Source: an uncultured Ruminococcus sp.
GTDB lineage: Bacteria; Bacillota; Clostridia; UBA1381
Assembly (NCBI GenBank): GCA_902783115.1
Contig: CACZPW010000155.1
Location: forward strand, 1 to 37,240
DNA length: 37,240 nt
Direction: 5' to 3'
Part shown: piece after piece, positions 377-34,268 of the stretch
Position numbering within the stretch: the first letter of the stretch is position 1
Layout of the letters: each line of letters begins with the position of its first letter
Position numbers and translations under genes: made by a program
The notes under the pieces: model-generated
The model's database searches: none
The model's input: only the letters and a program-made list of their open reading frames with translations
Told to the model about the DNA's origin: nothing

Positions 377-407
377 TTTTGCATTTTGCATTCTGCATTT
401 TGCATTT
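377..407. repeat. Short tandem heptamer repeat (TTTTGCA x4)
   Basis: Four consecutive 7-bp units, TTTTGCA, TTTTGCA, TTCTGCA and TTTTGCA, run from 377 to 404 in the short gap before the glycoside hydrolase gene at 433. A related GCATTTTGCA core sits in the palindrome near 28268. I see no coding function. It may be a simple-sequence expansion or part of the 5' leader of the next gene. Confidence 0.7.
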
Positions 408-432
408 ATTAAAAAAGTGGGGGGTGTTCCGC

Positions 433-3873: not shown

Positions 3874-3900
3874 GTCGGTATATTGGGAGGTATTATTATA

Positions 3901-10400: not shown

Positions 10401-10427
10401 ATATTGGGAAAGGAAAGTGATTTTACA

Positions 10428-11822: not shown

Positions 11823-11857
11823 CGTTACATCATTTAAAAGATGAGGAGGGTATCCAA

Positions 11858-12778: not shown

Positions 12779-12792
12779 GGAAGGAGCAGGTT

Positions 12793-13820: not shown

Positions 13821-15170
13821 ATGACAAATATAACTGTTGATTTTAAGCAAAAATGTGGTAAAATAAAGCCGATGCACGGGGTGGGACAGCCACCCTTCGG
13901 AGGCATGGATTTTTCGTTTATCAAATACTTAAAGGACGCAAATATTCCGTACTCACGTCTTCACGATGTCGGAGGTTGGTTCGGTGGTAATTTGTTTGTT
14001 GATATACCCAACATATTCAGGGACTTTGAAGCAGACGAAACCGATCCCAAATCCTATGATTTTGCGTTTACGGATATACTTATCGAGGCTCTTGAAAAAA
14101 ATGACTGCGAGCCTGTATACCGTCTTGGCGTCACCATTGAAAATTTCCATTACATAAAGGCGTACAGGATATTCCCGCCGAAGGATGTGCAAAAATGGGC
14201 AAGGGTATGCGAGCATATAATACGGCATTATAACGAAGGCTGGGCGGACGGTTATCATTACGGCATCAAGTATTGGGAGATATGGAACGAGCCGGATAAC
14301 GGTATCGACGATACGCAGAATATGATGTGGCACGGCACAAAAGAGGAATTTTACGAGCTGTATAGAGTCACGTCAAAGCATCTTCGCAAGGTTTTCGGAA
14401 ACTCAATTAAAATAGGCGGTTACGGTCATTCGGGCTTTTATGTTGTTGACAGCGTGGAGGATATTGAAAACTCTATCGGCATAGGTCTGGGAATGAAGGA
14501 GAATCCGACCGATTGGGAAAAACGGACGGAGTATTTTATCGAGTTTTTTGACGGATTTATAGATATGGTCGTAAAGGAAAACCTGCCGTTTGATTTCTTT
14601 TCACATCACAGCTATGCAACGGTCGGCGCAACCTTAAGACGCCAGAAATATGTTGAAAAGCGTTTGTGTGATGCGGGACTTTCGGACGTTGAAATACACT
14701 TAAACGAGTGGAATACCAATGCGCGCGCCAAGGAACGCGGCAGATCGGTAGCCTCAGCAAATGCGGCGGCAATGATGTGTGTTATGCAGAATACAAAAAT
14801 GGCGCTTATGAACTATTACGATGCAAGGCTGGGCGCTTCCATGTACGGCGGTCTGTTTAATCCGATCACGTACGGGCCGCTGTGCACATATTACAGCTTT
14901 AAGGCTTTTGGGAATCTTTACAGGCTCGGAACGCAGGTTGAGGCAAAATGCGATAAAGACGGTATTTATGTGCTTGCGGCAAAGGGTGAGGACGGCGTTG
15001 GAGTTCTGATCACAAATACGCTAAGCGATGCGCAGTTAAGCCTTGATACGGACAGAGAGCTTTGCGCGTACTTAATAGACGAAGATAATTTTTATAAGGA
15101 GACAGATATTGACACAGCGTCTTTTACGTTAAAAGAAAATCAGGTGCTTTATCTGGAAGGTAAACTATGA
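13821..15170 (+). CDS. Cytoplasmic glycoside hydrolase, GH39-like (beta-xylosidase-type fold)
   Basis: A 449-residue enzyme with no signal peptide, so it acts on imported oligosaccharides. The N-terminus (MHGVGQPPFGG) and barrel resemble GH39. YWEIWNEPDNG holds the likely acid/base Glu157, and IHLNEWNT holds the likely nucleophile Glu296. After the barrel (to about residue 370) comes a small beta domain ending NQVLYLEGKL, as in GH39 and related clan-A enzymes. ATG 13821 follows AAAGGAAA. Its stop overlaps the start of the next glycosidase (ATGA), so the two are translationally coupled. GH39 members act on xylosides, iduronides and some other substrates, so the exact sugar is open. Confidence 0.85.
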   Translation: MTNITVDFKQKCGKIKPMHGVGQPPFGGMDFSFIKYLKDANIPYSRLHDVGGWFGGNLFVDIPNIFRDFEADETDPKSYDFAFTDILIEALEKNDCEPVYRLGVTIENFHYIKAYRIFPPKDVQKWARVCEHIIRHYNEGWADGYHYGIKYWEIWNEPDNGIDDTQNMMWHGTKEEFYELYRVTSKHLRKVFGNSIKIGGYGHSGFYVVDSVEDIENSIGIGLGMKENPTDWEKRTEYFIEFFDGFIDMVVKENLPFDFFSHHSYATVGATLRRQKYVEKRLCDAGLSDVEIHLNEWNTNARAKERGRSVASANAAAMMCVMQNTKMALMNYYDARLGASMYGGLFNPITYGPLCTYYSFKAFGNLYRLGTQVEAKCDKDGIYVLAAKGEDGVGVLITNTLSDAQLSLDTDRELCAYLIDEDNFYKETDIDTASFTLKENQVLYLEGKL

Positions 15171-17509: not shown

Positions 17510-17537
17510 CAAATATACGCTAAAGGAGGGCTTTTAA

Positions 17538-20500
17538 ATGAAATGGCGTAAGATGATAGGTGCAGCCGTTGCGGCTGCCGCAGTTGTGGCAAGTGCCGCG
17601 GTAATATCCATGCCGCAGGCGTATGCCGAAACGATAAATACCGATACCGTGTACAGGGAGGATTTTGACGGTTTTGAAAAATTAAACTATTCTCCCACAC
17701 TCAAAGCATTAAAGGATTACGGCTGGTATGCGGCGGATAACAATACGCTTTATACCGAGGTTGATAGTGTTCCGCCATATAAAACCTATGAAGGCAAGTT
17801 TGCGCAGATTGCAAAGGTTGACGGCAGTATGGTACTGGTTATAGCGTCTGCAGGCGAGGGCAACAGTACTCAAAATTCGGATATTCCCAAATATGGCTAT
17901 GGAAAAACCTTCCCCGGAGCAAGTGCGTGTGAAGCGGTAACAGGCACATGGGAAATAAGCTTTGATTTTAAACCGTATCTATCAAATAAAATGACGCAGT
18001 TTGCGTTCACTTTCAATACGGGCGATGAATCGGATCTCACTGAAGCAAGTGCGCAGCATAATATCATAGCGGGCTACGGACAGAGATTTTACCTTGGCTG
18101 CCGTGACTATAAGTGGCTTTTGGACAACAGCGTTACACAGGGTACTTTAAAAGCTTCAGACATAGGCGGTGAGGTATGGTATACTGTTAAAACCGTATTA
18201 AACTGTGATGCCAGATATTATACGGTAGAGCTTTATAACAGGGCTACCGGTGAGCTTATCGCGCGCAGGTGTCCTATAAGCTATGACAAGGACGAAAACA
18301 TAAGCTTTATAAAGTTCTCGGCATTGGGTTTTAAGCAAAAATCCTATGTGTTTGTTGATAATATTTCCATAGAAAAAACAGAAAAAAATGCTGTTATATA
18401 TAACGAAACCTTTGATACGTTTACAAACGAAAGCTATCACGCGGCGGACGGTATCAGAACCGGCACAGAGTCGGAGGATTTTTCGGGTAACAGCTATTTT
18501 AAGGGCCATACACCCTGGAGGTTTGATGAAAGTATCGGTAATGACTATTGCTTTGAAGATGATGATACGCTTTCAAGTCAGGTTGTAAGACTCGGCGATG
18601 ATATAAAAACCGCAGGAACATATGAAAAATCGGGACTTATATATATGCAGGCAAACGAGCCGCTTATAGACCGTAAAACGGCGCCATACAGGGGCATGTT
18701 AAAGACAAGCTTCAAGATAAAGCCCGAAACCGTAGCAGATGATTTTTCGGTGAATGTCATACCCGATGCAAACGTTGATATTGCATCAGATGAGAGTGCA
18801 TTTTTCAAAATAGTAAATCTTAACGGCACTCCCGCAGTTTCGGACGGTGATGGCGAATATGTAAGTCTTGACAGTTCAAAATGGTATAATGTTGACCTTA
18901 CATTTGACGCTATGGGCGATGCAGCATCGGCAGAGGTGACGGATCTTAGCGGAAACTACGTTGCAAAAAGCTTTGTAACGGGTGATTCGGCGCCCGATGC
19001 CATAAAGGCAATAATGCTTGTATCTAAAGGCGGCACGTCCGTTCTGGCAGACGATATCAAGCTTGAATATTCGGACAGGCTGCTTGGCGTAACCTCCGTA
19101 ACCGTAAACGAAGAGCCGCTTACCTCTTTATCGGATATAACTCCTCTTTCGACCGTAAATGTCGGGATTTGCTATAATAACCAAACTAATCAAACGCTCA
19201 ACAGCAATGTAATATTTGCATTATACAGCGACGATGCCCTTGTAAACGTGCAGACGGCAGATTTTTCCGTACAGTCATCTTTGCACGGTACGGACTCACA
19301 GGCGGCGGAATTTACGGTGCCGTCCGATGTTGATACTGACAGCGTCAATAAAATGTCCGTATTTGTCTGGGACGCTCTTGACGGTATGCGGTCTATGACT
19401 CAAAAGACGGGCGAAAAGAAGCGTACAGCCGGAAAATACAAGGATTATGTTGATTTTACCGTCGATATAGAGGACGGACGCGGCGCTGTTATCCTTCAGC
19501 TTACGGATACACAGATCGTGGATTCAAAGCAGATCCGTGAGGGAATTGAATATAACCCTGCAATGCCCAAATATTGGCTGCCGCAGCTTATGAATCAAAG
19601 GCTGTTCAATGATTTAAGAGAGATAATAAATGACGTAAAGCCCGATCTTATTCTGCTTACGGGCGACTGCGTATACGGCGGCTATGACGATAACGGAACG
19701 TCGTTTGTAAGACTTGTTGACTTCCTTGACAGATTCGGTATTCCATGGGCGCCGGTATTCGGAAATCACGATAACGAAAGTAAAATGGGCGCAGATTGGC
19801 AGTGTCGCTACCTTGAGAGCCGCAAAAACTGTCTGTTCAAGCAAAGGACGCTTACGGGTAACGGAAATTACAGCATAGGCATTTCTCAGGACGGTGAGTT
19901 AAAGCGTGTAATATTTATGCTTGACAGTAACGGCTGCGCTGTAATGAGTGATGAAAGCTTTGCTAACGGACATTCCAAAAAGACTGCGGGCTTCGGTGAT
20001 GACCAGATAGCATGGTATACCGCAGCAGCGGAAAAAATAAACGCTGATTTTGAAAATATGAAATACACCTTTGCCTTCCATATCCAGCTTGCGGAGTTTG
20101 AAGATGCGTTCGCTAAATACGGCTTTTCAAGCAGCGCCGAAAGGAAGGAAAACGGAGACCTTGCTTCGCCTATAAATATTGATACCCGCGAGGATAAGGC
20201 GCCTACGGATTTCGGATATATCGGAAGAAAGCTTAAGGGGGCATGGGATCAGGACAGGAGCGTATATAACGGTATAAAAGCCATCGGTGCGGATTCGATC
20301 CTGGTCGGACATGAGCATTGTAACAGCGCAAGCGTTGTATATGACGGAATTCGCTTCCAGTACGGTCAGAAAATAGGCGAATATGACAGAATAAACTTCA
20401 AGGATTCGGATGGTAATATTACCGGCGCGGTTGCATACGCCACAGGCTACGGCACGCCCGTTCTCGGCGGTACGGTTATGGAATTGTCGGAAAATACGGG

Positions 20501-20540
20501 CGAGATCGCCAATGCATATATTCATTATTGCAGTAAATAA
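17538..20540 (+). CDS. Secreted calcineurin-like metallophosphoesterase with two N-terminal concanavalin-like modules
   Basis: A 1000-residue exported protein; ATG 17538 follows AAAGGAGGG and yields a signal peptide with cleavage near AYA-ET. Module A (about 39-280) and module B (about 287-510) are close relatives of those in the SLH protein at 3901: both B modules share TPWR/SPWR then SQVVRLGDD. A beta domain (about 512-625) ends in MSVFVW. Residues 645-1000 are a metallophosphoesterase: LTDTQ (Asp657), TGDCVYGG (Asp710), GNHD (Asn743, His744), a FHIQLAEFE His, and GHEH (His925, His927). The first motif is D-x-Q instead of the usual D-x-H. No SLH domain is present. It may remove phosphate from a glycan outside the cell; the substrate is unknown. 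Confidence 0.88.
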   Translation: MKWRKMIGAAVAAAAVVASAAVISMPQAYAETINTDTVYREDFDGFEKLNYSPTLKALKDYGWYAADNNTLYTEVDSVPPYKTYEGKFAQIAKVDGSMVLVIASAGEGNSTQNSDIPKYGYGKTFPGASACEAVTGTWEISFDFKPYLSNKMTQFAFTFNTGDESDLTEASAQHNIIAGYGQRFYLGCRDYKWLLDNSVTQGTLKASDIGGEVWYTVKTVLNCDARYYTVELYNRATGELIARRCPISYDKDENISFIKFSALGFKQKSYVFVDNISIEKTEKNAVIYNETFDTFTNESYHAADGIRTGTESEDFSGNSYFKGHTPWRFDESIGNDYCFEDDDTLSSQVVRLGDDIKTAGTYEKSGLIYMQANEPLIDRKTAPYRGMLKTSFKIKPETVADDFSVNVIPDANVDIASDESAFFKIVNLNGTPAVSDGDGEYVSLDSSKWYNVDLTFDAMGDAASAEVTDLSGNYVAKSFVTGDSAPDAIKAIMLVSKGGTSVLADDIKLEYSDRLLGVTSVTVNEEPLTSLSDITPLSTVNVGICYNNQTNQTLNSNVIFALYSDDALVNVQTADFSVQSSLHGTDSQAAEFTVPSDVDTDSVNKMSVFVWDALDGMRSMTQKTGEKKRTAGKYKDYVDFTVDIEDGRGAVILQLTDTQIVDSKQIREGIEYNPAMPKYWLPQLMNQRLFNDLREIINDVKPDLILLTGDCVYGGYDDNGTSFVRLVDFLDRFGIPWAPVFGNHDNESKMGADWQCRYLESRKNCLFKQRTLTGNGNYSIGISQDGELKRVIFMLDSNGCAVMSDESFANGHSKKTAGFGDDQIAWYTAAAEKINADFENMKYTFAFHIQLAEFEDAFAKYGFSSSAERKENGDLASPINIDTREDKAPTDFGYIGRKLKGAWDQDRSVYNGIKAIGADSILVGHEHCNSASVVYDGIRFQYGQKIGEYDRINFKDSDGNITGAVAYATGYGTPVLGGTVMELSENTGEIANAYIHYCSK

Positions 20541-20574
20541 CTTATGGCGCAAAAAGCCGAAGGAGAATATAAAA

Positions 20575-22683
20575 ATGGACGTAAAGAAATTGCTTTCCCG
20601 GATGACGCTTGATGAAAAGATAGGACAGCTTGTGCAATTCGGACCATCTATTTACAAGAATTTTGAGGAAATCAGGTGGGATACGTTAAGAAACGGCGAA
20701 ATAGGCTCATTTATACGGGTAAGAGATCCGAAAATGGGGAATAAGCTCCAAAAATGTGCCGTCGAGGAGTCAAGACTCGGCATACCACTGGTTTTTGCCG
20801 ATGACATCATACACGGCTATTATACAAACTTTCCCGTTCCTGCGGCTGAAGCGTGCAGCTGGGAACCGGAGCTTGCCGAAAGAACTGCGGCTCTTGCCGC
20901 AAAAGAGGCAAGAGCGTCGGGAATACAGTGGACGTATGCGCCCATGGTCGATTTGGCAAGAGATGCAAGGTGGGGCAGAAATTCAGAGGGCGCAGGCGAG
21001 GACCCGTATCTTTTGTCATGCTTTGCAAAGGCAAGAGTCAAGGGCTTTCAGGGTGATGATATTTCGGCTCCCGATAAGGTCGCGGCGTGTGCAAAGCATT
21101 TTGTGGGCTACAGTGCCTGCATAGGCGGCAGGGACTATAACAGTGTCGAAATGTCGGAGCAAACTCTTTACGATATGTTTCTTCCACCGTTTTTTGCGGC
21201 GATAGATGCTGGCGTTGCAACGGTTATGTCGGCATTTCACGATTTTAACGGAGTACCCTGTGCAGGCAATAAATGGCTTATGACCGACGTTTTAAGAAAC
21301 GAAATGAAGTTTGACGGCGTGCTTATAAGCGATGCGGGCGCAGTTGGGCAGCTTCAAACACACGGATATACCGAAGATGAAAAGGATACCGCAAAAAAGG
21401 CAATGGACGCCGGTACGGATATTGAAATGGCAAGCTTTACATACACGCATCATTTAAAGGAGCTCGTAAATGCCGGTGATATCTCAATAGAACGGCTTGA
21501 TGAGGCGGTATTAAGAGTTCTTGAATTAAAGAACAGACTCGGACTGTTTGAAAATCCGTATGCTGATACGGATATGGCAAACAGTATCGGCGCTACGGAG
21601 GAAAGTCTTGCTCTTGCAAGAGAGTGTGCGAGAAAGAGCATTGTTTTACTGAAAAATAAGAATAACATACTTCCCATCAATAAAAAATCAAAAATTGCAG
21701 TCATCGGAGCTTTGGCAGGAAACGAAGATGATATGAATGATGTATGGAGCGGAAAAACAAAGAATGCAGTAACCATATACGCAGCGCTCAAGGCTGATAA
21801 TTATAAGGTGAGGTATGCAAAAGGCTATGATTTAAAGACCGATGAGGTGTTTGTTGAAGAAGCGCTAAAGGCGGCACGGGAATGTGAAATTATTTTGTTC
21901 GTGGCAGGCGAGGGCATAAATTATCAGGGGTATATGTCGGGCGAGGCGCGGAACCGTTCCGATATCAAGATACCCAAAATACAGCAGGAGCTTTTAACGG
22001 AGCTAAAGAAAACAGGAAAGCCCATAATTGCATATATATTTTCGGGTAGACCGCTTGCTTTGCGAAATGTTGATGAAGCAGTCGATGCGATGCTCTGGTC
22101 GGGCGGCTTGGGTACGGAAACGGGCAACGCCGTTATGGATATACTGTCAGGTGACTATAACCCGTCAGCAAAGCTTGTATGGACGTTTCCGACGTCAAGC
22201 GGTCAGTCCCCGTACTTTTATAACCATAACAATACAGGTAAACCGCCTATCAGGGAAATATGGTATTCATCAAAATACATTGACGCGCCCATAGGTGCGC
22301 AATATCCGTTCGGGTACGGTTTATCGTATACAAGCTTTAAGTATGATAATCTGCGGATATCGGGCGCTAAATTCACTGTTGATGATGTCCTGGAAGCGTC
22401 TGTTGACATTACAAATACGGGAGAAGTGTTCGGTGAGGAAACAGCGGAGCTTTATGTAAGAGATGTTGTGGGAAGCAGGGTACGGCCTGTAAGAGAATTA
22501 AAGGGCTTTAAAAAGACAGGTCTTTATCCGGGCGAAACAAAAACGGTCACAATAGATGTGCCGGTAAAAAATCTGGGCTTTCATAACGCCGATATGGAAT
22601 ATGTGGTTGAGCCGGGAAAATTTTTGCTTTATATAGGCCCCGACAGCGAAAGCGGACTCAAAACGGAGTTTTTTGTAAAATAA
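20575..22683 (+). CDS. Glycoside hydrolase family 3 (beta-glycosidase)
   Basis: A 702-residue cytoplasmic exo-glycosidase that removes single sugars from non-reducing ends. I chose ATG 20575, after AAGGAG, over an upstream in-frame start that overlaps the previous gene, because MDVKKLLSRMTLDEKIGQL is the canonical GH3 beginning. Domain 1 contains RWGRNSEGAGEDPYL, KHFVGY and GVLISDAGA, with nucleophile Asp253. Domain 2 holds SGEARNRSDIKIP, the likely acid/base region, and the C-terminus is a fibronectin-III-like domain (YPFGYGLSYTSFKYDNL, then VDITNTGEVFGEETAELYV). It is the last + strand gene of the first locus. The sugar specificity is not readable. Confidence 0.94.
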   Translation: MDVKKLLSRMTLDEKIGQLVQFGPSIYKNFEEIRWDTLRNGEIGSFIRVRDPKMGNKLQKCAVEESRLGIPLVFADDIIHGYYTNFPVPAAEACSWEPELAERTAALAAKEARASGIQWTYAPMVDLARDARWGRNSEGAGEDPYLLSCFAKARVKGFQGDDISAPDKVAACAKHFVGYSACIGGRDYNSVEMSEQTLYDMFLPPFFAAIDAGVATVMSAFHDFNGVPCAGNKWLMTDVLRNEMKFDGVLISDAGAVGQLQTHGYTEDEKDTAKKAMDAGTDIEMASFTYTHHLKELVNAGDISIERLDEAVLRVLELKNRLGLFENPYADTDMANSIGATEESLALARECARKSIVLLKNKNNILPINKKSKIAVIGALAGNEDDMNDVWSGKTKNAVTIYAALKADNYKVRYAKGYDLKTDEVFVEEALKAARECEIILFVAGEGINYQGYMSGEARNRSDIKIPKIQQELLTELKKTGKPIIAYIFSGRPLALRNVDEAVDAMLWSGGLGTETGNAVMDILSGDYNPSAKLVWTFPTSSGQSPYFYNHNNTGKPPIREIWYSSKYIDAPIGAQYPFGYGLSYTSFKYDNLRISGAKFTVDDVLEASVDITNTGEVFGEETAELYVRDVVGSRVRPVRELKGFKKTGLYPGETKTVTIDVPVKNLGFHNADMEYVVEPGKFLLYIGPDSESGLKTEFFVK

Positions 22684-23945: not shown

Positions 23946-25202
23946 TCAGCGCTTATCCCAGGGCAATACTTCCCAGTCTTCGGGCGGAGTGCCGAGATCC
24001 GGAACGTCCATAACCTTTCCGCCTGCCAATGCTGACTGATGCGCAACAAGACCGGGTATGTTGTATCTTGCGACCTCCCAGATATTTGTGGGCGAAAGCT
24101 TACCCGTTTCATAAGCGCGGCAGAAATCGTCTATGAGGAAATGGTGCGTGCCGTTATGCCCGTTATGTATACCTTCATATTCCTTGGGCAAACGCTCCGT
24201 CGGCTGAACGGGCGCTGCGTCATACCAGCCTGCACCCGATGCGATCTGCTGTATTGCGTCCTTGTAATCGGTATTTATAAGCTTTGACACCGATTCGGGC
24301 TGTATCTGTTCCGTAACGTCTTCCATAATAGTCTTGTGATCGTCCTCGGGATTCCAGCGTGATAAGCTGTGATGTGCAACCGAGAATTCGTAGCCTGCGC
24401 TGTCGCCGTAAAATTGAGTTATATACGTTTCGGGCGCAACCCAACCTACACAGCGGTTTTCGCATACTCTTACAACACCGCCGTTTGAAAGCTCCAAAAG
24501 CATGGTTTCGTTAGCGAACGGATTGTTGTAGTTATTCTGCCCGTCAGTGCCGTAAATATCAGTTCTTTCGCTGCCGCCAAAGCCGAATGCCACAACCTTT
24601 TTTGCATATACTCCGGGCATAGCCGAAAGTATCATAGAGGTTGAATGTGAGGGATAGAAGAACGGCGGTATTCCCGCAAACCGTTTCCAGTCCTCGCCGC
24701 CGGAGCTTCTGAAGCTCTGCTCCATATTCCGTATGTCGTGGTTATACTGCGCCTCGCCGTATGTAAATCTGCCGAAGGTACCTTTTGCAAACTCTTTACG
24801 GCAGAAGCATGCCGGAGCGCGGTAAAAGCCTGTTTCGCCCATTGAATAGGTAAGCCTTGATTCTCTTACAAGCCGTTCGATTTCCTTTATCTCATCAACC
24901 TTTACAGCGCAGGGAACGGAGCTGTAGACGTGCTTTCCCGCTTTAAGCGCTCTTATTACCATTTCGCCGTGAGTAAAACGCTGTGTAAATATTGCAACTG
25001 CGTTGATTTCCTTTGACGCAAGCACTTCTTCGTAAGTATCTATTATCTTAACGTCAAAATCCTTTGCGAATTTTTCCGCACGATCTCTTTTTAAGTCGCA
25101 TACATATACCTTTTCAACGATTCTGTCCGCTTTAAAAAGCGTAACAAAGAACGGGCTGAATCTGCCGCAGCCTATTATTGCAATTTTCATTTTCTCTTTC
25201 AT
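23946..25202 (-). CDS. Gfo/Idh/MocA-family NAD(P)-dependent oxidoreductase
   Basis: A 418-residue Rossmann-fold protein. The dinucleotide loop is IAIIGCGRFSPF (residues 7-18). ATG 25202 has AAGGAG at good spacing. Where most family members have E-K-P at the end of the nucleotide domain, this one reads YSSVPCAVKVDE (about 93-104), so the conserved Lys is replaced by Val96. The rest keeps the family pattern (YSMGETGFYRAP, then GTHHFLIDDFCRAYETGK). I recall this 'S-x-V-P' form as a recurrent subgroup with unclear substrates. Members oxidise or reduce sugars and cyclitols or act as redox glycosidases. It is co-oriented with the Fe-S genes and only 23 bp from the next one. Confidence 0.9.
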   Translation of the reverse strand: MKEKMKIAIIGCGRFSPFFVTLFKADRIVEKVYVCDLKRDRAEKFAKDFDVKIIDTYEEVLASKEINAVAIFTQRFTHGEMVIRALKAGKHVYSSVPCAVKVDEIKEIERLVRESRLTYSMGETGFYRAPACFCRKEFAKGTFGRFTYGEAQYNHDIRNMEQSFRSSGGEDWKRFAGIPPFFYPSHSTSMILSAMPGVYAKKVVAFGFGGSERTDIYGTDGQNNYNNPFANETMLLELSNGGVVRVCENRCVGWVAPETYITQFYGDSAGYEFSVAHHSLSRWNPEDDHKTIMEDVTEQIQPESVSKLINTDYKDAIQQIASGAGWYDAAPVQPTERLPKEYEGIHNGHNGTHHFLIDDFCRAYETGKLSPTNIWEVARYNIPGLVAHQSALAGGKVMDVPDLGTPPEDWEVLPWDKR

Positions 25203-25225
25203 TTTATTTTACACTCCTTTTTTTA

Positions 25226-26203
25226 TCAAGTTCTTCCGCTGAAATGCCATTCTTTTTCTCTTTTTTGGGTTTCAAACTGCTTTGTGCTCAGCTTCCAATC
25301 CTCGCCGCTGCGGAATTTTTTCTTAAAGCTTTTTTTGAGGATACCCTTTTCTTCGAGATGTATATAGCAAGCTCTGTCACAGGCTCTGCCACAAATGGAC
25401 GTCCTGTAATAATGCTTCGCGGGCGGATAAAAGTAAATGCTGTCAAGTATTTCCTTTGCTTCCTCGGCGTCAAATTCCGCCGTACCGTTTATAATATCGA
25501 GTCTGTTATCAAAGTCGGGGAAAGCGTCGGGCGGCATAAACGGATTTTTACTGCCGTTTCCGCCGTTATAATACACGGCGCATCTCCAGGAATCCACATT
25601 CCCGTTCTCGTCTATAGCATGGCCGGGACAACCCTTTATACATTCGCCGCACTTATCGCAGATATGCGGCTCATACATCGGCGTCGGATCAAGCTCCGCA
25701 TCCGTTATTATAAAGCAATATCTTAAAAACGGACCGTAATCATCATTTAAAACCGCACCCGACAAGCCCCTTTCGCCAAGTCCACAAAGAACGGCGCATT
25801 TGTCAAAATCGATCTGATTTTCAGCCGTTATGCCTCTGTAGATATCATTGTAGTCCACTTCCGGGTTTGTTTCGTTTTCCTCGCTCATTATAAGCTGATT
25901 ACGCCTTTGCGGCATCGCCTCATAGCCGTATTCCTCTATAAGAGTGCTGATTTTTAAAAGCGCAAGCGGCATTACCGTTTCTTCAAGATTTTCAACGCCC
26001 ATTGTCGTGTACTGATAATATGTCGTACCTTCCTCAACGCCTCTGTATTCGCCTCTTAAAACACGGAACCCGAGACCTATGACCGTTTTTGCGTTGGGGA
26101 ATATTTTAAACACCGCATCGTCCTTATCAAAGCGTGACGCAGGCGCAAAGCCCACAATATCGGCATCGAATTTAAGGGCAGTATCAATTATTTCTTGTCT
26201 CAT
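25226..26203 (-). CDS. QueG-like double-[4Fe-4S] protein, paralogue 1
   Basis: A 325-residue cytoplasmic redox protein related to epoxyqueuosine reductase (QueG) and reductive-dehalogenase-type folds. The C-terminal double-cluster domain has Cys182, 185, 188 and 192 (CDKCGECIKGCP), Cys208 (WRC), and Cys271, 275 and 279 (CGRACDRAC), enough for two [4Fe-4S] clusters. The N-terminal part (DADIVGFAPASRF, TVIGLGFRV, CGLGERGLSG) matches the QueG N-terminal/GLG region, which in QueG binds cobalamin. The QueG catalytic Asp-containing segment is not recognisable here, so tRNA modification is unlikely. It overlaps the upstream paralogue by 4 bases (ATGA). The substrate is unknown. Confidence 0.85.
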   Translation of the reverse strand: MRQEIIDTALKFDADIVGFAPASRFDKDDAVFKIFPNAKTVIGLGFRVLRGEYRGVEEGTTYYQYTTMGVENLEETVMPLALLKISTLIEEYGYEAMPQRRNQLIMSEENETNPEVDYNDIYRGITAENQIDFDKCAVLCGLGERGLSGAVLNDDYGPFLRYCFIITDAELDPTPMYEPHICDKCGECIKGCPGHAIDENGNVDSWRCAVYYNGGNGSKNPFMPPDAFPDFDNRLDIINGTAEFDAEEAKEILDSIYFYPPAKHYYRTSICGRACDRACYIHLEEKGILKKSFKKKFRSGEDWKLSTKQFETQKREKEWHFSGRT

Positions 26204-27105
26204 ATCCTGCCTGCCTCCTTTAAATGCTTATAGCATACCGTTTCGCATTTTCTGCCGCAAAGACAGGGTACATATCCAAAATGCGTGTTCGGTAAAAATT
26301 TCAGCTTATCGTAGATCGCTTTTGCGCTTTCGCTGTCAAATTTCATATCTCCGTTTATTATCTTTTCACGGTCAGGATCGCCCGCAAGGAAATCCTCTTT
26401 CATAAACGGGTTCGATTTATGTGCGCCTCTGTAATAGACGCTGCACTGCCACGTATCAACGCCGTTTTGGTCGATCGCGTGTCCGGGACATGCTTTCATA
26501 CATTCGCCGCATCCATCGCAAAGCTCGGTCTCTATGGGCTTATCACATTCAAGCGGCATATCGGTTATTATAAATGCATACCTCATGTATGTACCGTATT
26601 TGGGAGCAATCACCTTACCGTTAAGCCCTATAGTACCCAAACCGCATGCAACTGCGGCCTTGTTGTAGTCTATTATAACCTCGGGAGCGGGCTTGCCCTC
26701 CTCTACGGGACTTGAATATTTCAATTCGTATGTCAGACGTACCTCGGGGGAAGTCGATTTATCGCCCTTTATCCTGAGCCCGGGAACGCTTCTTTGAAGA
26801 CATGCGTCAAACCCGGCGTTTTCGATGATGCGTGCCATTTTCAAAAGTAAGATCTCAACAAGCGCTTCGTCTATGTATTTAACGCCCAGGTTTATATAAT
26901 TATAATACTGCACCTTGTTTTCCATCGCATTGTAAAGAGCGTTCGGTATCTTCATTCCGAAGCCTATGATGCATTTTGCGTCGGGCAATATGCATTTGGG
27001 ATCCCTTTGCGGATCGGAGCCGTCGAAACAGGAAATATCACCTATGCCGCAGGTTGCCGCACCCAGCTCTTTAGCCTTCTGTTTTATAAATTCAGCAGTC
27101 AGCAT
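26200..27105 (-). CDS. QueG-like double-[4Fe-4S] protein, paralogue 2
   Basis: A 301-residue paralogue of its neighbours. Cysteines lie at 196, 199, 202 and 206 (CDGCGECMKACP), 221 (WQC), and 283, 287 and 291 (CGRKCETVC), with an extra Cys281. The N-terminus reads ELGAATCGIGDISCF and the middle AAVACGLGTIGLNGK, which corresponds to the QueG A-G-L-G-x-I-G-K loop. The start at 27105 has AAAGGATG upstream. It is the shortest of the three and ends soon after the last Cys. Tight packing and coupling to paralogue 1 suggest the proteins act together, perhaps as different subunits or as enzymes on related substrates; that is inference. Confidence 0.85.
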   Translation of the reverse strand: MLTAEFIKQKAKELGAATCGIGDISCFDGSDPQRDPKCILPDAKCIIGFGMKIPNALYNAMENKVQYYNYINLGVKYIDEALVEILLLKMARIIENAGFDACLQRSVPGLRIKGDKSTSPEVRLTYELKYSSPVEEGKPAPEVIIDYNKAAVACGLGTIGLNGKVIAPKYGTYMRYAFIITDMPLECDKPIETELCDGCGECMKACPGHAIDQNGVDTWQCSVYYRGAHKSNPFMKEDFLAGDPDREKIINGDMKFDSESAKAIYDKLKFLPNTHFGYVPCLCGRKCETVCYKHLKEAGRI

Positions 27106-27132
27106 TTGTATTCATCCTTTCTGTAGCTTTAG

Positions 27133-28212
27133 CTACCTGTCCATTCTCCACGCTTTTTTTGTGCGGAGCGGCTTTTCAAATCTTCCTGCCATACAGCCGC
27201 CCTTTTTCTCAAGCATACTCACACATGCACGGATACAGCCTCCGCATTTTGCCATGTTATAGCCGACCCAGCTCGGAAAATATTTTTCAAGGCTTGTATA
27301 TACCTTCATTATTTCCTTTTCGTTTGCCAAGTCTGTTTTGCCCTCAAGCAGATCGAGCATACCGTCCTTATTTTCGTCAAACACATCTTTAGGAACAAAC
27401 GGGTTGTAATATCTGCCGGCATGGGTATAGAATGCATAGCAGCGCCACATATCGATATCGCCCCACTCGCATATCTTGCCCGCAAGGTTTACTCTTACGG
27501 TTTTTCCCGAATTCAGGGGCGGGATGCATGAGCCGGGACATTCTCTTACGCAGGCGCCGCATTTTCTGCAAAGCGGCTCGCCGTTATACATTTCGTCGTA
27601 TTCAAGCTCTGCATCGGTAAATATGAACGCCACACGCTGCAAGGGTCCGAATTCCGGCGTGAGAAGCATTTTGCTCCAGCCTATTTCGCCAAGCCCGCAG
27701 GCAACTGCCGCAAGCCTGAACTGAAACTGCAGATCGGGCGGCACCTTGCCGGGACCTACCTCTCTTGTAAACTGAACGCTTCTGTGATGGGCGGTCTTGC
27801 CCTTTGCGTGCTTGCTGACCTCTATTTGTTCTTCGGGTGACAGGGTGTTGCCGGGACTTCCGTCCATATCAGAAACGATGCCCCTTGCGCCCGTGTTTCT
27901 GTAGACTACAGCCTCATAGCCCTCGTCCTCAATAACCTTTCCAACGTGATAGAGAACAGCGGGCGCATATATTTCGTTTATGCCGCCGTATGCCATTGAC
28001 GGGTACTGATAAAACTGCGTACCCTCCTCAATACCCCGCTGGACTCCTCTGGGTATTCTGAACACAAAGCCTATACAGCTTTTTGCCGTGGGAAACAGCT
28101 TTCGCGGATCCATTTCGGGCGGCGCACCCTCAAAACGTGACATGGGCGCTATGCCGCAGTTGTCCGCACCCGCTTCATATGCGGCGTCTTTGATCATTTT
28201 ACTTGTCAGCAT
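27133..28212 (-). CDS. QueG-like double-[4Fe-4S] protein, paralogue 3
   Basis: A 359-residue paralogue, the first of the three in transcription order. I start at ATG 28212, after AAAGGAA, where MLTSKMIKDAAYEAGADNCG aligns with paralogue 2; the longer frame upstream reads through repeat DNA. Cysteines lie at 215, 218, 221 and 225 (CRKCGACVRECP), 258 (WRC), and 323, 326 and 330 (CGGCIRAC). It has two features the others lack. One is an insertion after residue 110. The other is DENKDGMLDLLE (279-290), which fits a canonical EF-hand calcium loop. It differs most from the other two in the last cluster, so it may have a different partner. Confidence 0.85.
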   Translation of the reverse strand: MLTSKMIKDAAYEAGADNCGIAPMSRFEGAPPEMDPRKLFPTAKSCIGFVFRIPRGVQRGIEEGTQFYQYPSMAYGGINEIYAPAVLYHVGKVIEDEGYEAVVYRNTGARGIVSDMDGSPGNTLSPEEQIEVSKHAKGKTAHHRSVQFTREVGPGKVPPDLQFQFRLAAVACGLGEIGWSKMLLTPEFGPLQRVAFIFTDAELEYDEMYNGEPLCRKCGACVRECPGSCIPPLNSGKTVRVNLAGKICEWGDIDMWRCYAFYTHAGRYYNPFVPKDVFDENKDGMLDLLEGKTDLANEKEIMKVYTSLEKYFPSWVGYNMAKCGGCIRACVSMLEKKGGCMAGRFEKPLRTKKAWRMDR

Positions 28213-28246
28213 TTTTATAAATATTCCTTTCCGAGGAAATAACTCC

Positions 28247-28331
28247 GTGAATAGTTCAAAATGCAGAGCATTTTGCACCTTACTTATTCACTATTCCTTA
28301 TTACCTCTTACCTGTCTTGATTTATCAAGAC
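28247..28331. repeat. Palindromic intergenic sequence with two hairpins
   Basis: An imperfect palindrome spans 28247-28291: GTGAATA pairs with TATTCAC, and inside it AAAATGC (28258-28264) pairs with GCATTTT (28268-28274). A second perfect hairpin, GTCTTGAT/ATCAAGAC (28314-28331), directly follows the stop codon of the U32-like gene on the - strand. Neither is followed by a T-run. They may set the relative expression of the genes on either side, or be remains of a small mobile repeat. Confidence 0.6.
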
Positions 28332-29321
28332 TTATTCCTCCAGTTTTATAAGTGCAGATTCCAAGCCTGAATATATAAGCCTTTTATCTGTTACGGTTTT
28401 GTTTATTTTTTCATTATCCAGAATATACGGATACAGTGTATGAGAGTGATTCGGTTCAAGCAGCTCAAGAACATTGCCCGGAAATTTTTTGTTTTCGATA
28501 TACGCCTTTAAAATACGCGCAGGATTCGGTGAGACCCGTGTCGCAAGCTTCATGGCGGGGGTGAGCCCCTCATAAAGCTCCGTATCCTCCGGCCTTATGA
28601 AATTTGTAATATCAAGGAGCGTTTTTCTGTTTTTGACATCCGATAAATATGTACGGCATATTCCCTCAAAAGCATACCCGTTATCCATTTTCCGTATCTC
28701 GTTTTCATGCGATACCAGATTATCGTGGAAAATATGCGCCGAGCAGTTGTTAAGACAACCGCTGTTTGCAAGTATGAACAGCTGCTTGTTGTTATCATCG
28801 CACCACGCTTTTAAGCTTCTTATTGCCTCGAAGTCTCTGTTAAGCTCACGCTTTAAGTAGAAGCTGTCAAAATAGGGAGCAACATAGTCCATACCCTCTT
28901 TAGTGCCTATTGACATATTTACGGACGCCCTGACATTGATGAGGGGAAAATTATCCTTAATGAATTTACCTATCAAGGGTGATGTGGTTGTAACACCGCA
29001 AAGCCCGAAATTGCTTTTTACATAATCGACAGTATCGCCCACGCTTTCAAAAAATGATTTTGACAGACTGTCCGCTCCGTAGCAGGTAGCGTTGAAAAGC
29101 AGATTGAGGTTTATCCCGTTTTGGGAAAGAAGTGCAAGATCGTTCATTTTTTGCTTGCTTGCTTCCCATTGAGGAAGATCGCGGGCTATGTATGTCGTAT
29201 TGCGCCCGTTTGCAAATCCGTCCCAGGCAAAGTATACCTCGTATATGCTTTCCTTGTTTGATATTATCGTTTGTAAAAAATCAGTATCCGGCATAAGCTG
29301 GTAGCCGACCGAAAATTTCAT
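28332..29321 (-). CDS. Peptidase-U32-like TIM-barrel protein, possible Fe-S protein
   Basis: A 329-residue protein that resembles the U32/YhbU-V (UbiU/UbiV) group. The segment RASVNMSIGTKEG then SFYLKRELNRDFEAIRSL follows the U32 pattern in which a strand ends in 'L-x-R-E-L'. It is followed by LFILANSGCLNNCSAH (Cys189, Cys193) and ICRTYL (Cys222), a spacing reminiscent of the Cys set that holds a [4Fe-4S] cluster in that group. It is the first gene of the - strand unit and has GAGG 9 bases before ATG 29321. UbiU/V-type proteins support hydroxylation or RNA-modification chemistry without O2; which job this one does is unknown. The family call is moderately sure. Confidence 0.65.
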   Translation of the reverse strand: MKFSVGYQLMPDTDFLQTIISNKESIYEVYFAWDGFANGRNTTYIARDLPQWEASKQKMNDLALLSQNGINLNLLFNATCYGADSLSKSFFESVGDTVDYVKSNFGLCGVTTTSPLIGKFIKDNFPLINVRASVNMSIGTKEGMDYVAPYFDSFYLKRELNRDFEAIRSLKAWCDDNNKQLFILANSGCLNNCSAHIFHDNLVSHENEIRKMDNGYAFEGICRTYLSDVKNRKTLLDITNFIRPEDTELYEGLTPAMKLATRVSPNPARILKAYIENKKFPGNVLELLEPNHSHTLYPYILDNEKINKTVTDKRLIYSGLESALIKLEE

Positions 29322-29466: not shown

Positions 29467-30312
29467 ATGGAAGTTCATAATATAAACCCAAATATCCGCT
29501 ACGCCAGAGAACATAACAATTTCAGGGGCGTGCCGTATGTGAGCAAATGCTACGACTGCAGAATATTTTATATATGCAGCGGAGAGGGCTATGTGACGGT
29601 AAACGGCGAAAAATATAATTTTCTGAATAATTACATAATATTTTTTCCGCCCGGGACCGAATACAGATTTACAATAGATTATGATGAAAAAAATTCCGTT
29701 CAAGTCCTGAACTTTGACCTGTCCGATATGTATTTTGACAGCCAAGAGCATCTCGGAACGCCGTCAAAGGAGGATTTTGAAGCAAAAAATGTGCCAGAAT
29801 ACGAGCTTCCGAAGGAATTTGCACATATAATAATAACGGAGGATTTTTTCGGGATAAACGAGTTGCTTGAAGAGTGTATAAAGCTTTTCATATCAAAGCC
29901 CAGATATTATAAGGAAATAGCGTCGTCAATACTTAAAAAATGCCTGTTGATGCTGCTTACGGAGGAAAATTCGCTCGGAAAAAACAACAAGCTTATAACG
30001 GCGGTTTTGGACTATATCAACAAAAGCTATGCGGATACTTCATTGTCAAACAATACTATAGCGGCGCAGTTTAATTATCATCCGTATTATCTTAATAATC
30101 TTGTCAGGAATTTTACGGGCAAAACCATACATCAGTATATAATATATTACCGCCTCAGAGTTGCAAAGGACATGCTGCTTACGACAGATTATGACGTTAA
30201 TTCGATAGCGTGGAGGGTGGGTTTTAACTCCTCCTCGCATTTTATAAGCACATTTCACCGTCATTTCGGGCACACTCCGTATGAGTACAGGCAGTCAAAT
30301 ATTGCGTATTGA
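29467..30312 (+). CDS. AraC-family transcriptional regulator
   Basis: A 281-residue regulator. The N-terminal cupin-type sensor (YICSGEGYVTVNGEKYNFL, FFPPGTEYRF) is followed by two helix-turn-helix units: SLSNNTIAAQFNYHPYYLNN and VNSIAWRVGFNSSSHFISTF, then HFGHTPYEYR, the classic AraC signature end. It is divergent from the U32/Fe-S unit and followed at 30331 by direct repeats that look like its operator. It probably controls the downstream mannosidase/esterase unit and possibly the divergent genes. It differs clearly from the other AraC protein at 23008. Confidence 0.93.
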   Translation: MEVHNINPNIRYAREHNNFRGVPYVSKCYDCRIFYICSGEGYVTVNGEKYNFLNNYIIFFPPGTEYRFTIDYDEKNSVQVLNFDLSDMYFDSQEHLGTPSKEDFEAKNVPEYELPKEFAHIIITEDFFGINELLEECIKLFISKPRYYKEIASSILKKCLLMLLTEENSLGKNNKLITAVLDYINKSYADTSLSNNTIAAQFNYHPYYLNNLVRNFTGKTIHQYIIYYRLRVAKDMLLTTDYDVNSIAWRVGFNSSSHFISTFHRHFGHTPYEYRQSNIAY

Positions 30313-30738: not shown

Positions 30739-30953
30739 GAATTTACAATAATCTCGGTATCGGGGTAAAGGAGGAACCGTATTCACTTGGATTTTTAATG
30801 GATGCGGACGAAATAATACTGTCATCAAGCTCAAATTTCTGTATTGCGGCAACGCATATCGACGGTACTGCCGTAGGCGGAAAGGCGCCGGGGCTTTTAA
30901 GAAAAATACAGGACGCGCTTATTGAAGATTATTTAAGATATACAGGAGAATGA
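30735..30953 (+). pseudogene. D-amino-acid aminotransferase C-terminal remnant
   Basis: In the frame ending at TGA 30951-30953 the sequence reads RIYNNLGIGVKEEPYSL, then DADEIILSSSSNFCIAATHI, then DGTAVGGKAPGLLRKIQDAL. This is the C-terminal part of fold-type IV aminotransferases such as D-alanine aminotransferase (compare the family pattern 'V-x-E-x-P-F ... A-D-E-v-f-x-t-s-t ... D-G ... G-x-G-x-P-G'). About 70 of roughly 285 residues survive; the PLP-lysine portion is missing and there is no start or ribosome site. It overlaps the deacylase remnant by 4 bases, so both belonged to one operon for using N-acylated D-amino acids. Confidence 0.75.
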
Positions 30954-30955
30954 TA

Positions 30956-33619
30956 ATGAAGGTTAAAAAAATTGATGTTGTGTCAAATACACACTGGGAC
31001 AGGGAATTCCGTTTCAGCTTTGAAAAAACAAGGCATAATCTTCTGACTATGCTTGATACCACGCTTGATATTTTGGAAAGCGATAAAAATTATCACTCAT
31101 TTACCATGGACGGACACTCCATAATGATAGACGATTACCTTCAAATGCGCCCTCAAAGGCGTGAGCAGGTAGAGAGATTTATCCGTGAGGGCAGGCTTAT
31201 AATAGGTCCGTATTACACTTTGCCCGAGGAATTTACGATCTCGCATGAGGCGTTGATAAGGAACCTGATGTTCGGGCGTGAAACGGTTGCAAAATACGGC
31301 GGCAGAGTGCCGAAGGTTGCATACACGCCGTCTTCATGGGGGCAGACCGGGCAATTACCGCAGATATTAAAGGATTTCGGTATAGACTATATGATGTTTT
31401 ACAGGGGCATATCCCATGATGAAGCGCCTGCCGAATATATATGGAAAGCCCCCGACGGGAGCGAGGTAACTGCAAGCAGGTTTGCACTTTATTGCAGATA
31501 TAACTGGTATTATCAGGTACACAGGGCGGTATCGAGAAACAGAGTATGGTCAAAGGACTATAAATGGGGCGAATTTGACGAAGCGCCGTTCAGACGTGCG
31601 GACGGTTTTGTGGGACCGTCGATAAACTATGATTTGAAATCACCCGTTGCAAATTACGATAACAGTAACCTCAAACAGGCAATCATTGATATGCTTGACG
31701 AGGAGAAGGGACATTTTACAACGCCCGTATTTTTGGGTATGAACGGGCATGATATTTCCGTAGGCTTTCCCCGTGAGAGCGAGGTAATCAGGGATGCCAA
31801 AGAAGCCTTTGCGGGTGATATGGAAATAGAGCATACGAACCTTGAAGGCTTTTGGAAGGATGCGGAGGAATATCTTGACAGGGATAAAATGACGGTTTTG
31901 ACGGGCGAGCGGCGTTCGTATTTAAAAGAGGGCAAATGGACGTATCTGTTCCCGGGAACGATATCGGCAAGAACATATTTAAAGCAAGCTGATTTTAATG
32001 CCTATACCGAGCTTTCGTATATTGCGGAGCCGTTGAACGCCATTGCCGGAAACGACAGTGAGCTGTATTTAAAACGCGGTTGGCAGTATCTTTTATCCAA
32101 TCACAGCCACGATGCAAACGGCGGTTGTGCGCCGGACTGCGTATGTAAGGATATGGAATACAGATACCGTAAGGCGAGTGATATCGCCGAGATCGTCTCC
32201 GAGGACGCAATGGCGCATATCGCCAAGAACCTGTCACCTGACGGGCAGGACAGGAATATCGTACAGATAATTGTATATAACACGCTTCCGTATAAAAGAG
32301 ATGTTATCACTCCCATTGATATAGAAGTACCCGATACCTTGGGTAAGGGCATAAAAATCGACGGTGTAAGGCTTCAGGTTATCGAAAGCGGAAAATCAAG
32401 TATATTTATGGATAATATATGGGACGTTCCGACGATATTGGAAAGCACTCATCACAGATTTTATGCCGAATTCAAGGATATTCCCGCTATGGGCTATAAG
32501 GTATTTGAAATAAAAGGCGATACACATAAGCCGCAGAAAAAGGCGGGTATCGCAATGGGGAATACGCTTGAAAACACTGAATTGAAGGTAACTGTGAATC
32601 CGAACGGCACGATAGACGTTTTATATAAGGAGACGGGCAAGGAATACAAGGGACTTAATTTCTATACCTCGCAGGGTGAGGTGGGGAATGCGTGGCAGCA
32701 TAAAAGCCCCGAATTTGACAGAAAATATTCTACCGTCGGCACAAACCACAGGGTATATGTGACCGAAAGCGGAGAGCTGTCGGGTACAATAGTAACCGAA
32801 TGTGAATTTGAAGTACCCGAAAGCTGTGAGAAAGATCCGAGCGGTATATATACAAAAATACCCATTAAAACAAGCTATACGCTTGATAAGGATTCGGATT
32901 GCATAAAGGTCAGGACGGAGCTTATAAATACCGCAAAGGATCACTGGTTAAGGGTGAATTTCCCGGCGGGTATCAGGACGCAGTATTCGTATTCGGACAG
33001 CCATTTTGATATTGTAAGGCGTGACATTGCCGTTCCCGATTCAACGGGCTGGGTGGAGCAGGCGTTCGGAATGCAGCCGTTAAGAACATTTGCGGCTGTT
33101 ACGGACGGTGAAAACGGATTTTCGGTTATGCCCAAGGGCTTGTTTGAATATGAGGTGTTTGACGATATGACCGTTGCTCTGACGCTTATAAGGGCGTGCC
33201 GTATAAAGCTTGCGGTATCGGAGGAAAAGGTAACGGAGCTTGAGGACGAGGGCGTACAGTGTCCGGGCAGACAGGTATTTGAATACGCCATTAACTTCAA
33301 TAACGGTGAAACGGCAAACTTACCGAATAAAGCGGCGGAGCTTTTTGCAAACGTAAAATGCGCCGTATGCGGAAGAGGTAAGGGAACGCTGCCGCTCAAG
33401 AACAGCTTATTTGAAATTGATAACAAGAATGTGCATATAACGGCAGTAAAAAGAGCCGATGACAGAAACGGCGTTATCGTAAGAATGTATAATCCTACCG
33501 GGGACGAGCAAAAGGTCGGTCTTAAAGGTCAAAGGTGCAGAATGGACGAGAGTCCTGCCGGAGCATTTGACGGCACAGTCGCTGCAAAAAAGATCGTTAC
33601 GGTAAGGATCGGTGGTTAA
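30956..33619 (+). CDS. GH38-like alpha-mannosidase
   Basis: An 887-residue cytoplasmic enzyme. ATG 30956 is about 8 bases after AGGAGA; an ATG at 30950 is too close. GH38 features seen: VVSNTHWDREFRFSFEKTR with zinc ligands His13 and Asp15 of H-x-D, GYTP-like AYTPSSWGQTGQLPQIL (about 122-138), FYRGI, and late NHSHDANGGCAPD with a likely zinc His. C-terminal beta domains follow. Usual members read P-D-x-F-G-H where this one has P125-S126-S127-W128-G129-Q130, so the canonical Asp nucleophile is replaced. It probably removes alpha-mannose, but altered activity is possible. It is followed by an overlapping esterase gene. Confidence 0.85.
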   Translation: MKVKKIDVVSNTHWDREFRFSFEKTRHNLLTMLDTTLDILESDKNYHSFTMDGHSIMIDDYLQMRPQRREQVERFIREGRLIIGPYYTLPEEFTISHEALIRNLMFGRETVAKYGGRVPKVAYTPSSWGQTGQLPQILKDFGIDYMMFYRGISHDEAPAEYIWKAPDGSEVTASRFALYCRYNWYYQVHRAVSRNRVWSKDYKWGEFDEAPFRRADGFVGPSINYDLKSPVANYDNSNLKQAIIDMLDEEKGHFTTPVFLGMNGHDISVGFPRESEVIRDAKEAFAGDMEIEHTNLEGFWKDAEEYLDRDKMTVLTGERRSYLKEGKWTYLFPGTISARTYLKQADFNAYTELSYIAEPLNAIAGNDSELYLKRGWQYLLSNHSHDANGGCAPDCVCKDMEYRYRKASDIAEIVSEDAMAHIAKNLSPDGQDRNIVQIIVYNTLPYKRDVITPIDIEVPDTLGKGIKIDGVRLQVIESGKSSIFMDNIWDVPTILESTHHRFYAEFKDIPAMGYKVFEIKGDTHKPQKKAGIAMGNTLENTELKVTVNPNGTIDVLYKETGKEYKGLNFYTSQGEVGNAWQHKSPEFDRKYSTVGTNHRVYVTESGELSGTIVTECEFEVPESCEKDPSGIYTKIPIKTSYTLDKDSDCIKVRTELINTAKDHWLRVNFPAGIRTQYSYSDSHFDIVRRDIAVPDSTGWVEQAFGMQPLRTFAAVTDGENGFSVMPKGLFEYEVFDDMTVALTLIRACRIKLAVSEEKVTELEDEGVQCPGRQVFEYAINFNNGETANLPNKAAELFANVKCAVCGRGKGTLPLKNSLFEIDNKNVHITAVKRADDRNGVIVRMYNPTGDEQKVGLKGQRCRMDESPAGAFDGTVAAKKIVTVRIGG

Positions 33620-34268
33620 TGTGTATACAAAGCATAAATGGAACTCAGATACATATTATAATTTCAATTATGCACGGTATTTGCCAAAGGATTTTGATAA
33701 AGACAAAAAATATCCCTTGGTTTTCTTCCTTCACGGTGCGGGGGAAAGAGGCGATGATTTAGACGTCGCCGCCCGTAACGGATATATGAAATATGTCCGG
33801 GAGGAGGGTAAGGAATATCCGTTTATCTGTATATTGCCGCAATGCCCGGACGGCAAATATTGGGGCTGTTATACCGAGTCACTGCTTGCGTTTTTGGACT
33901 ACATCTCTGATACCTTGCCGGTTGATGAGCAAAGGATATATCTTACGGGCTGTTCAATGGGCGGATACGGAACGTTTATGCTTGCTATGGCGGATCCTGC
34001 GCGGTTTGCGGCGCTTGCGCCGGTGTGCGGCGGCGGAATACCGGCTATGGCGGGATTGGCGGCAAGTATACCCGTATTTATGTATCACGGTGATTGCGAT
34101 CCTGTGGTGTCCGTTACGGAAAGCGTAAATATGTTAAGAGAGATAAACAGAAGAGGCGGCAGGGCACAGCTTAAAATATGTTACGGAGTCGGGCATAACG
34201 CATGGGATCATGCTTATACCGATGAACAACTGATCGATTGGCTTATGTCACAAAGGCGTGAAAAATAA
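33612..34268 (+). CDS. Alpha/beta-hydrolase esterase (dienelactone-hydrolase/carboxylesterase-like)
   Basis: A 218-residue cytoplasmic hydrolase. YPLVFFLHGAGERGDDLD gives the oxyanion-hole HG segment. GCSMGGYG holds nucleophile Ser115, DCDPVV the acid Asp163, and GVGHNAWDHAY the His195, a complete triad. The start is ambiguous: GTG 33612 overlaps the mannosidase by 8 bases; GTG 33621 is the alternative. This family often removes acyl groups from sugars. Its coupling to the mannosidase fits the deacylation of an imported, esterified glycan, but the substrate is unknown. Confidence 0.88.
   Translation: MVNVYTKHKWNSDTYYNFNYARYLPKDFDKDKKYPLVFFLHGAGERGDDLDVAARNGYMKYVREEGKEYPFICILPQCPDGKYWGCYTESLLAFLDYISDTLPVDEQRIYLTGCSMGGYGTFMLAMADPARFAALAPVCGGGIPAMAGLAASIPVFMYHGDCDPVVSVTESVNMLREINRRGGRAQLKICYGVGHNAWDHAYTDEQLIDWLMSQRREK

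Follow-up and report, generated by a model that had tools for sequence, protein, structure and literature searches.

The DNA studied here is a stretch of 37,240 nucleotides from an uncultured Ruminococcus sp. (hereafter the window), in which five genes on one strand, at positions 23946-29321, encode a U32-fold protein, three paralogous proteins with two [4Fe-4S] cluster motifs each and a Gfo/Idh/MocA oxidoreductase. These are referred to below as U32, Q1, Q2, Q3 and GFO, respectively; L-numbers denote homologous loci and G-numbers the genomes compared. The first-pass annotation of the window had described five same-strand genes with short gaps or 4-base overlaps, bracketed by two AraC regulators, and both the open reading frames and the regulators were confirmed (Table 1). 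Q2 and Q3 overlap by 4 bases, and the gaps are 27 bases between Q1 and Q2, 23 between Q3 and GFO, 65 between GFO and the adjoining AraC gene and 119 between U32 and Q1. The start of Q1 was chosen by alignment with relatives as the ATG at 28212. Since U32 and Q1 lie only a few bases apart (e.g. 3) in close relatives, the 119-base gap was identified as an insertion; its predicted fold has an energy of -31.1 kcal/mol, a 35-base stretch of it matches L162:12659-12693 at 91%, and it is possibly a small mobile repeat. No Rfam elements were found in the window. All five genes are under strong purifying selection, with dN/dS values of about 0.03-0.11 against close relatives.

Table 1. Coordinates of the gene set, its regulators and the surrounding genes in the window.
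Feature	Position	Strand	Basis or remark
U32-fold protein, 329 aa, four invariant Cys (C80, C189, C193, C222)	28332..29321	-	homologue alignment, AlphaFold2 model, structure comparison
Q1, 359 aa, member of the class III cobalamin superfamily with two [4Fe-4S] motifs and Tyr75/Asn106/Arg193; presumably the catalytic subunit	27133..28212	-	
Q2, 301 aa, paralogue, eight Cys; Val in place of Tyr, Asn106 replaced in most sequences	26200..27105	-	
Q3, 325 aa, paralogue, eight Cys; Val in place of Tyr in most sequences, Arg/Lys in place of Asn106	25226..26203	-	
GFO, NAD(P)-dependent oxidoreductase of the Gfo/Idh/MocA family, optional; DgpA is the nearest solved structure (E 4e-18)	23946..25202	-	
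AraC-family regulator 1, cupin sensor and helix-turn-helix	23008..23880	-	
AraC-family regulator 2, divergent from the cassette	29467..30312	+	
119-base hairpin-rich insertion between U32 and Q1	28213..28331	-	without counterpart in close relatives
Sugar-type ABC transporter: solute-binding protein and two permeases	10404..13716	+	context; syntenic in L006, L007
Glycosidase genes GH39, GH106-like, GH3, and a metallophosphoesterase-domain protein	13821..22683	+	context; partly syntenic in L006, L007, L010, L011
GH38 (mannosylglycerate-hydrolase-like) and esterase	30950..34268	+	context; also near the cassette in L008, L010, L012

The first-pass annotation had proposed that genomes in which all five genes co-occur be listed, and had held that its grouping would fall if they did not; the opposite was found, as the set recurs widely. 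A scan of one genome per species yielded 44 U32 loci with named records, in rumen and gut Clostridia, Kiritimatiellae, Lentisphaerae, Opitutales and Planctomycetota, and a Q gene adjoins U32 in 37 of them. The carriers, spread over several phyla, include both gut and environmental bacteria. Among 391 Clostridia genomes, a strong Q1 (>400 bits) was detected in 22 and a strong U32 in 23, with 22 common to both; the remaining U32 carrier (G076) has a Q1 fragment adjoining U32, cut at the contig end. The phylum of the Kiritimatiellae locus carries a Q1-family gene in 72 of 309 genomes, and in its best 23 Q1 loci Q2 is adjacent in all 23, Q3 in 22 and U32 in 19, the order of the four genes being retained. 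For the phylum of the Planctomycetota locus the corresponding count is 8 of 314 genomes. Pairwise distances of U32, Q1, Q2 and Q3 correlate (Mantel r 0.59-0.89; 0 of 2000 permutations were as high), and the G+C content of most cassettes is near that of the surrounding DNA. What is conserved is thus the co-occurrence of four genes, U32-Q1-Q2-Q3, across Clostridia and the phylum that holds Kiritimatiellae and Lentisphaerae, with single cases in Planctomycetota and Opitutales; GFO, counted by the earlier annotation as a fifth member, is present in a subset of the loci only and is optional.

Two arrangements were observed, namely U32-Q1-Q2-Q3, with or without a cupin gene or GFO, and a two-gene Q1-like/U32-like pair, which is also widespread. 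G823, a single-contig genome of 5.7 Mb, carries Q1-Q2-Q3 and a separate Q1-like/U32-like pair. In addition, pairs of Q genes from two distinct clades occur without U32 in L147, L150, L164, L166 and L167, several of them with an AraC-like gene beside; these are a related but separate system. In L051:9986-10546 an apparent fusion of a U32 N-terminus to part of the C-terminal region of a Q3 was seen, as if the middle of the cassette had been deleted.

Each of the three Q proteins retains eight conserved Cys in the pattern of QueG and RdhA. The AlphaFold2 model of Q1 (predicted local distance difference test, pLDDT, 79.6) shows a nitroreductase-like core with a two-[4Fe-4S] module after it, and its best structural matches were QueG (Z 16.0) and PceA (Z 15.6), followed by the B12 enzyme MMACHC (10.4). 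When a sequence profile of Q1 was used instead, PceA was the best solved-structure match, ahead of QueG. The model and the eight Cys together place Q1 in the class III cobalamin/Fe-S superfamily. In the dehalogenase of S. multivorans the active-site residues are Tyr246, Asn272 and Arg305, the last of which is missing from QueG (PMC4646009). In the Q1 family, Tyr75 and Arg193 are present in 41 of 41 sequences and Asn106 in 37, so that the Tyr/Asn/Arg triad of RdhA is kept. In a multiple alignment with QueG and reductive dehalogenases (RDH), the Tyr75 column holds Tyr in all 19 QueG and all 18 RDH rows; the Asn106 column is Asn in 17 of the 18 RDH rows and Asp or Glu in QueG; and the Arg193 column is Arg in every RDH row and in no QueG row listed. 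By contrast, the Tyr75 position is Val in 8 of 8 Q2 and 6 of 8 Q3 sequences, and Asn106 is mostly replaced in both. The Q proteins thus fall into three separate orthologous groups with the catalytic Tyr in Q1 only, which bears out the earlier suggestion that the paralogues have divided roles. As a separate observation, double-length Q proteins of about 770-790 aa, with two tandem Q-like domains, are encoded at L030:12045-14417, L053:11984-14356, L170:6336-8687 and L171:6544-8859, and those of L030 and L053 adjoin a sugar-type ABC transporter.

The three proteins had been described at first as being of QueG type; their paralogy and double-cluster pattern were verified, but this label proved too narrow, as the Q1 active site is RDH-like. 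By a quick maximum-likelihood analysis, the Q families group on one side of the tree (support 94), whereas the 19 QueG rows and the 18 RDH rows each form one clade (99 and 100). Q1, Q2 and Q3 are each one clade, Q2 and Q3 being sisters (99). The Q proteins scored 27.7-49.6 bits against the QueG model TIGR00276 (cut-off 200) and 38-61 bits against the RDH model TIGR02486 (cut-off 160). No match to PF13486 was detected in this genome, and DUF1730 (PF08331) matched neither this genome nor the Q proteins, while it does match 7 of 14 control genomes. The QueG signature, a DYH-type Tyr with a conserved Asp and no equivalent of Arg305, was not found either: Q1 has Tyr75 but Asn106 and Arg193, and Q2 and Q3 are without the Tyr. 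The genome encodes QueH and no detectable QueG. Judged by sequence, the Q proteins are a separate clade of the class III cobalamin superfamily, neither QueG nor a known RDH.

The U32 model is confident (pLDDT 93.5) and matches the U32 peptidase Mk0906 (5d88) with Z 18.9 and a root-mean-square deviation of 3.1 over 221 residues, the next-best barrels reaching Z 12.4. C80, C189, C193 and C222, together with many polar residues, are invariant across U32 homologues (n=42). The first-pass assignment of a U32-like protein with a candidate Cys cluster therefore stands for the fold and the four Cys, but the protein has no Pfam match at E 0.1, including the Pfam U32 profile, and no NCBIfam match, so that its membership in the U32 family holds by the modelled fold only. 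The spacing of the Cys, C-X108-C-X3-C-X28-C, is not that of the U32-oxidase motif, CX6CX15CX3/4C (PMC6747719).

The affiliation of GFO was clear (PF01408, 72.9 bits against a cut-off of 24). Other accessory genes were noted as well. Close relatives have a small cupin gene, weakly matching the WbuC type, between Q1 and Q2 (L010:12058-12444, L011:12054-12419, L012:12054-12419); it is missing from the Q1/Q2 gap of the window (27106-27132) and takes other operon positions in L014, L050 and L162. A radical SAM/SPASM protein resembling a tungsten-cofactor oxidoreductase maturase (TIGR04317, below cut-off) is encoded within the operon in L135 (4783-5709) and after Q3 in L017 (5139-6131) and L141 (6887-7882), with a similar-looking divergent gene in L038. 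Upstream of the cassette in L016:6020-8993 are a glycyl radical enzyme, which reaches the cut-off of no named equivalog, and a likely activase.

The genes around the cassette were also compared between loci. A divergent AraC gene adjoins most four-gene loci of Clostridia, LacI-type regulators adjoin at least six loci of the Kiritimatiellae phylum (one checked by Pfam), and IclR-like regulators, recognised by eye only, lie near some two-gene loci. Of the 40 cassette regions, 21 contained glycan families, compared to 3 of 20 controls drawn from those genomes (Fisher p 0.005; own-genome hits excluded). The link to glycans is considered moderate, because the query families were chosen from cassette loci and the loci are not fully independent. 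A constant glycosidase partner was not found: GH106-like, GH28, GH29, GH3, MGH1-like and DUF5696 genes recur and none is universal. The coupling to glycosidases suggested by the earlier annotation thus survives as an enrichment, though not as a tie to any single family. At other cassette loci GH10 enzymes and esterases recur as well, and the two-gene versions adjoin genes for an FGGY kinase, a sugar isomerase (fucose- or arabinose-isomerase-like) and an aldolase. DUF5696 proteins (weakly GH101-like) follow Q3 or U32 directly, or lie close by, in L140, L143, L149, L169, L019, L021 and L287, across several genera. Ahead of the sugar transporter of the window, positions 379-10400 encode three surface-type proteins of very large size, of which two carry SLH domains and one carries CBM9. 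Cobalamin-related genes were uninformative: this genome has a B12-binding-domain protein and a cobalamin riboswitch, but the former is present in 13 of 13 genomes and the latter in 11 of 13, with or without the cassette.

Taken together, the dedicated AraC or LacI regulators and the moderate excess of glycan genes nearby suggest that the cassette performs a reductive step in an inducible catabolic pathway. With a probability of roughly 0.45, just short of even, we read U32-Q1-Q2-Q3 as an inducible, strictly anaerobic, cobalamin-dependent reductive enzyme system with Q1 as its catalytic subunit. Q1 would bind base-off cobalamin in its nitroreductase-type domain and take up electrons singly via its two [4Fe-4S] clusters; Tyr75, with Asn106 and Arg193, would serve as proton donor in the cleavage of a C-O (or other C-X) bond in a small molecule, which would in most cases be a sugar or glycoside of plant or host glycan origin. 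Q2 and Q3 are probably electron suppliers or shape a putative complex, since their clusters are kept while the catalytic Tyr and usually the Asn are lost. The U32 barrel, with a four-Cys cluster of its own, may be a catalytic partner acting on the same substrate. Where GFO is present, it may oxidise a sugar hydroxyl to a ketone and so activate the neighbouring C-O bond; this role is proposed because its nearest solved structure is DgpA, an enzyme that forms 3-keto glycosides, and a ketone beside a C-O bond would make reductive cleavage easier. In this reading, the conservation of the genes, the folds, the cluster ligands, the triad, the separate clade and the purifying selection are shown by the data, while the use of cobalamin, the complex, the substrate and the reaction are inferred. 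The more specific idea, that three class III paralogues and U32 make up a new class of cobalamin/iron-sulphur complex which reductively removes an oxygen substituent or an alkyl ether from sugars or glycosides, is offered tentatively, and we regard it as somewhat doubtful.

Several points weigh against this assignment of function. The Q1 model is poor at residues 108-150, and similarity of fold is no proof of B12 binding; of the candidate cobalamin-contact residues, those of the triad were compared. The assignment of Tyr75 rests on the multiple alignment, whereas the profile-to-PceA alignment put Tyr82 opposite Tyr246; Tyr82 was dropped as the equivalent of that residue, as it is not invariant, while Tyr75 is both invariant and aligned across all QueG and RDH rows. 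Furthermore, 19 of the 40 cassette regions contained none of the glycan families tested, and these families had been picked from cassette neighbourhoods.

One alternative scenario is that U32 is itself the catalyst, of an O2-independent hydroxylation or of the reverse, an IspH-like reductive dehydroxylation, and that Q1-Q3 are its electron-transfer partners. U32 oxidases are [4Fe-4S] hydroxylases whose mechanism is unsolved and for which an IspH-like one has been discussed (PMC11574389), and the barrel with its invariant polar residues and four Cys, like the two cluster motifs in each Q, would suit such a role. Q1, however, shows much stronger conservation than U32 and its catalytic triad is complete, some Q pairs occur in the absence of U32, and the Cys spacing is unlike that of U32 oxidases, so we consider this scenario unlikely. 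Alternatively, the cassette may be a cytosolic system for the reductive dehalogenation of natural halogenated compounds, which would account for the PceA-type triad in Q1 and for PceA being its best solved-structure match by sequence. The Q clade is nevertheless separate from RDH, the RDH models score it far below cut-off, no RDH membrane-anchor or partner gene was noticed, the linkage being to sugar genes instead, and dehalogenation as known leaves no role for Q2, Q3 and U32; this reading is in our view improbable.

The isomerase-, kinase- and aldolase-like genes beside the two-gene versions would also fit an anaerobic O-demethylation of methylated sugars, in which Co(I) of Q1 would take the methyl group and the freed sugar would enter an isomerase/kinase/aldolase route. 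GH106-like, GH28 and GH29 genes suggest pectin-type glycans, and URO-D-family genes lie near the cassette in L036. Such genes were noted in that one locus only, however, no methyl acceptor or tetrahydrofolate gene was seen in the cassette, and methyl transfer is not known for class III enzymes; little likelihood is left to this scheme. Last, the partial TIGR00276 matches, the QueG fold and the activity of known U32 proteins on RNA (PMC11574389) could indicate an RNA-modification cluster, with the Q proteins as QueG (perhaps duplicated) and U32 as a tRNA/rRNA hydroxylase. The first-pass annotation had itself asked whether the paralogues are tRNA epoxyqueuosine reductases. They lie outside the QueG clade and lack a DUF1730 match, and Q1 has Asn for Asp and the RDH-type Arg; this genome has QueH, and carriers G073, G085, G111, G119 and G169 have a separate DUF1730 gene. 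The regulators are moreover of inducible type and the distribution is sporadic; a queuosine role was rejected and RNA modification is considered extremely improbable.

The component proteins belong to known superfamilies. The first-pass annotation had known no described pathway of this make-up, and a literature search for the gene set, or for QueG-like paralogues in glycan loci, likewise found no description in open-access papers (most subscription papers lay outside the search). The cassette probably carries out a reductive reaction that nobody has described, and its function could be categorically new. In the accounts cited here, only two reactions of class III cobalamin enzymes are described, dehalogenation and epoxyqueuosine reduction (PMC4646009; PMC7585037). 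A third clade, in which one catalytic and two degenerate copies are all conserved and U32 is the usual partner, would extend B12 chemistry towards glycan breakdown in rumen and gut bacteria and offer another system in which to study the U32 mechanism, itself unsolved. Deoxygenation or de-etherification of sugars by the cassette, if true, would be an anaerobic step not known in carbohydrate metabolism. The gene sets found, including that of carrier G823, make the function directly testable.

In comparison to known systems, Q1 resembles PceA/RdhA in fold, in its two [4Fe-4S] motifs and in the Tyr/Asn/Arg triad, but the Q proteins form a clade of their own, are shorter, and occur as three conserved tandem paralogues with U32 in a sugar-gene context. 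With QueG, Q1 shares the fold (Z 16.0) and the cluster pattern; it differs in having no DUF1730 match, Asn for Asp and an extra Arg, in its separate clade, and in that QueH covers the QueG step in this genome. GFO is similar to DgpA and other Gfo/Idh/MocA glycoside oxidoreductases in its NAD-binding domain, although the alignment to DgpA, the closest solved structure, covers mainly the N-terminal domain, and no DgpBC- or 3-keto-hydrolase-type partner was identified in the cassette. The U32 protein, finally, shares with the U32 oxidases and peptidases (UbiU, UbiV, RlhA, TrhP; Mk0906) four invariant Cys and a TIM barrel as in Mk0906, and is unlike them in its missing Pfam U32 match, its Cys spacing (although UbiU and UbiV themselves deviate from the oxidase motif) and its pairing with proteins of the cobalamin superfamily.

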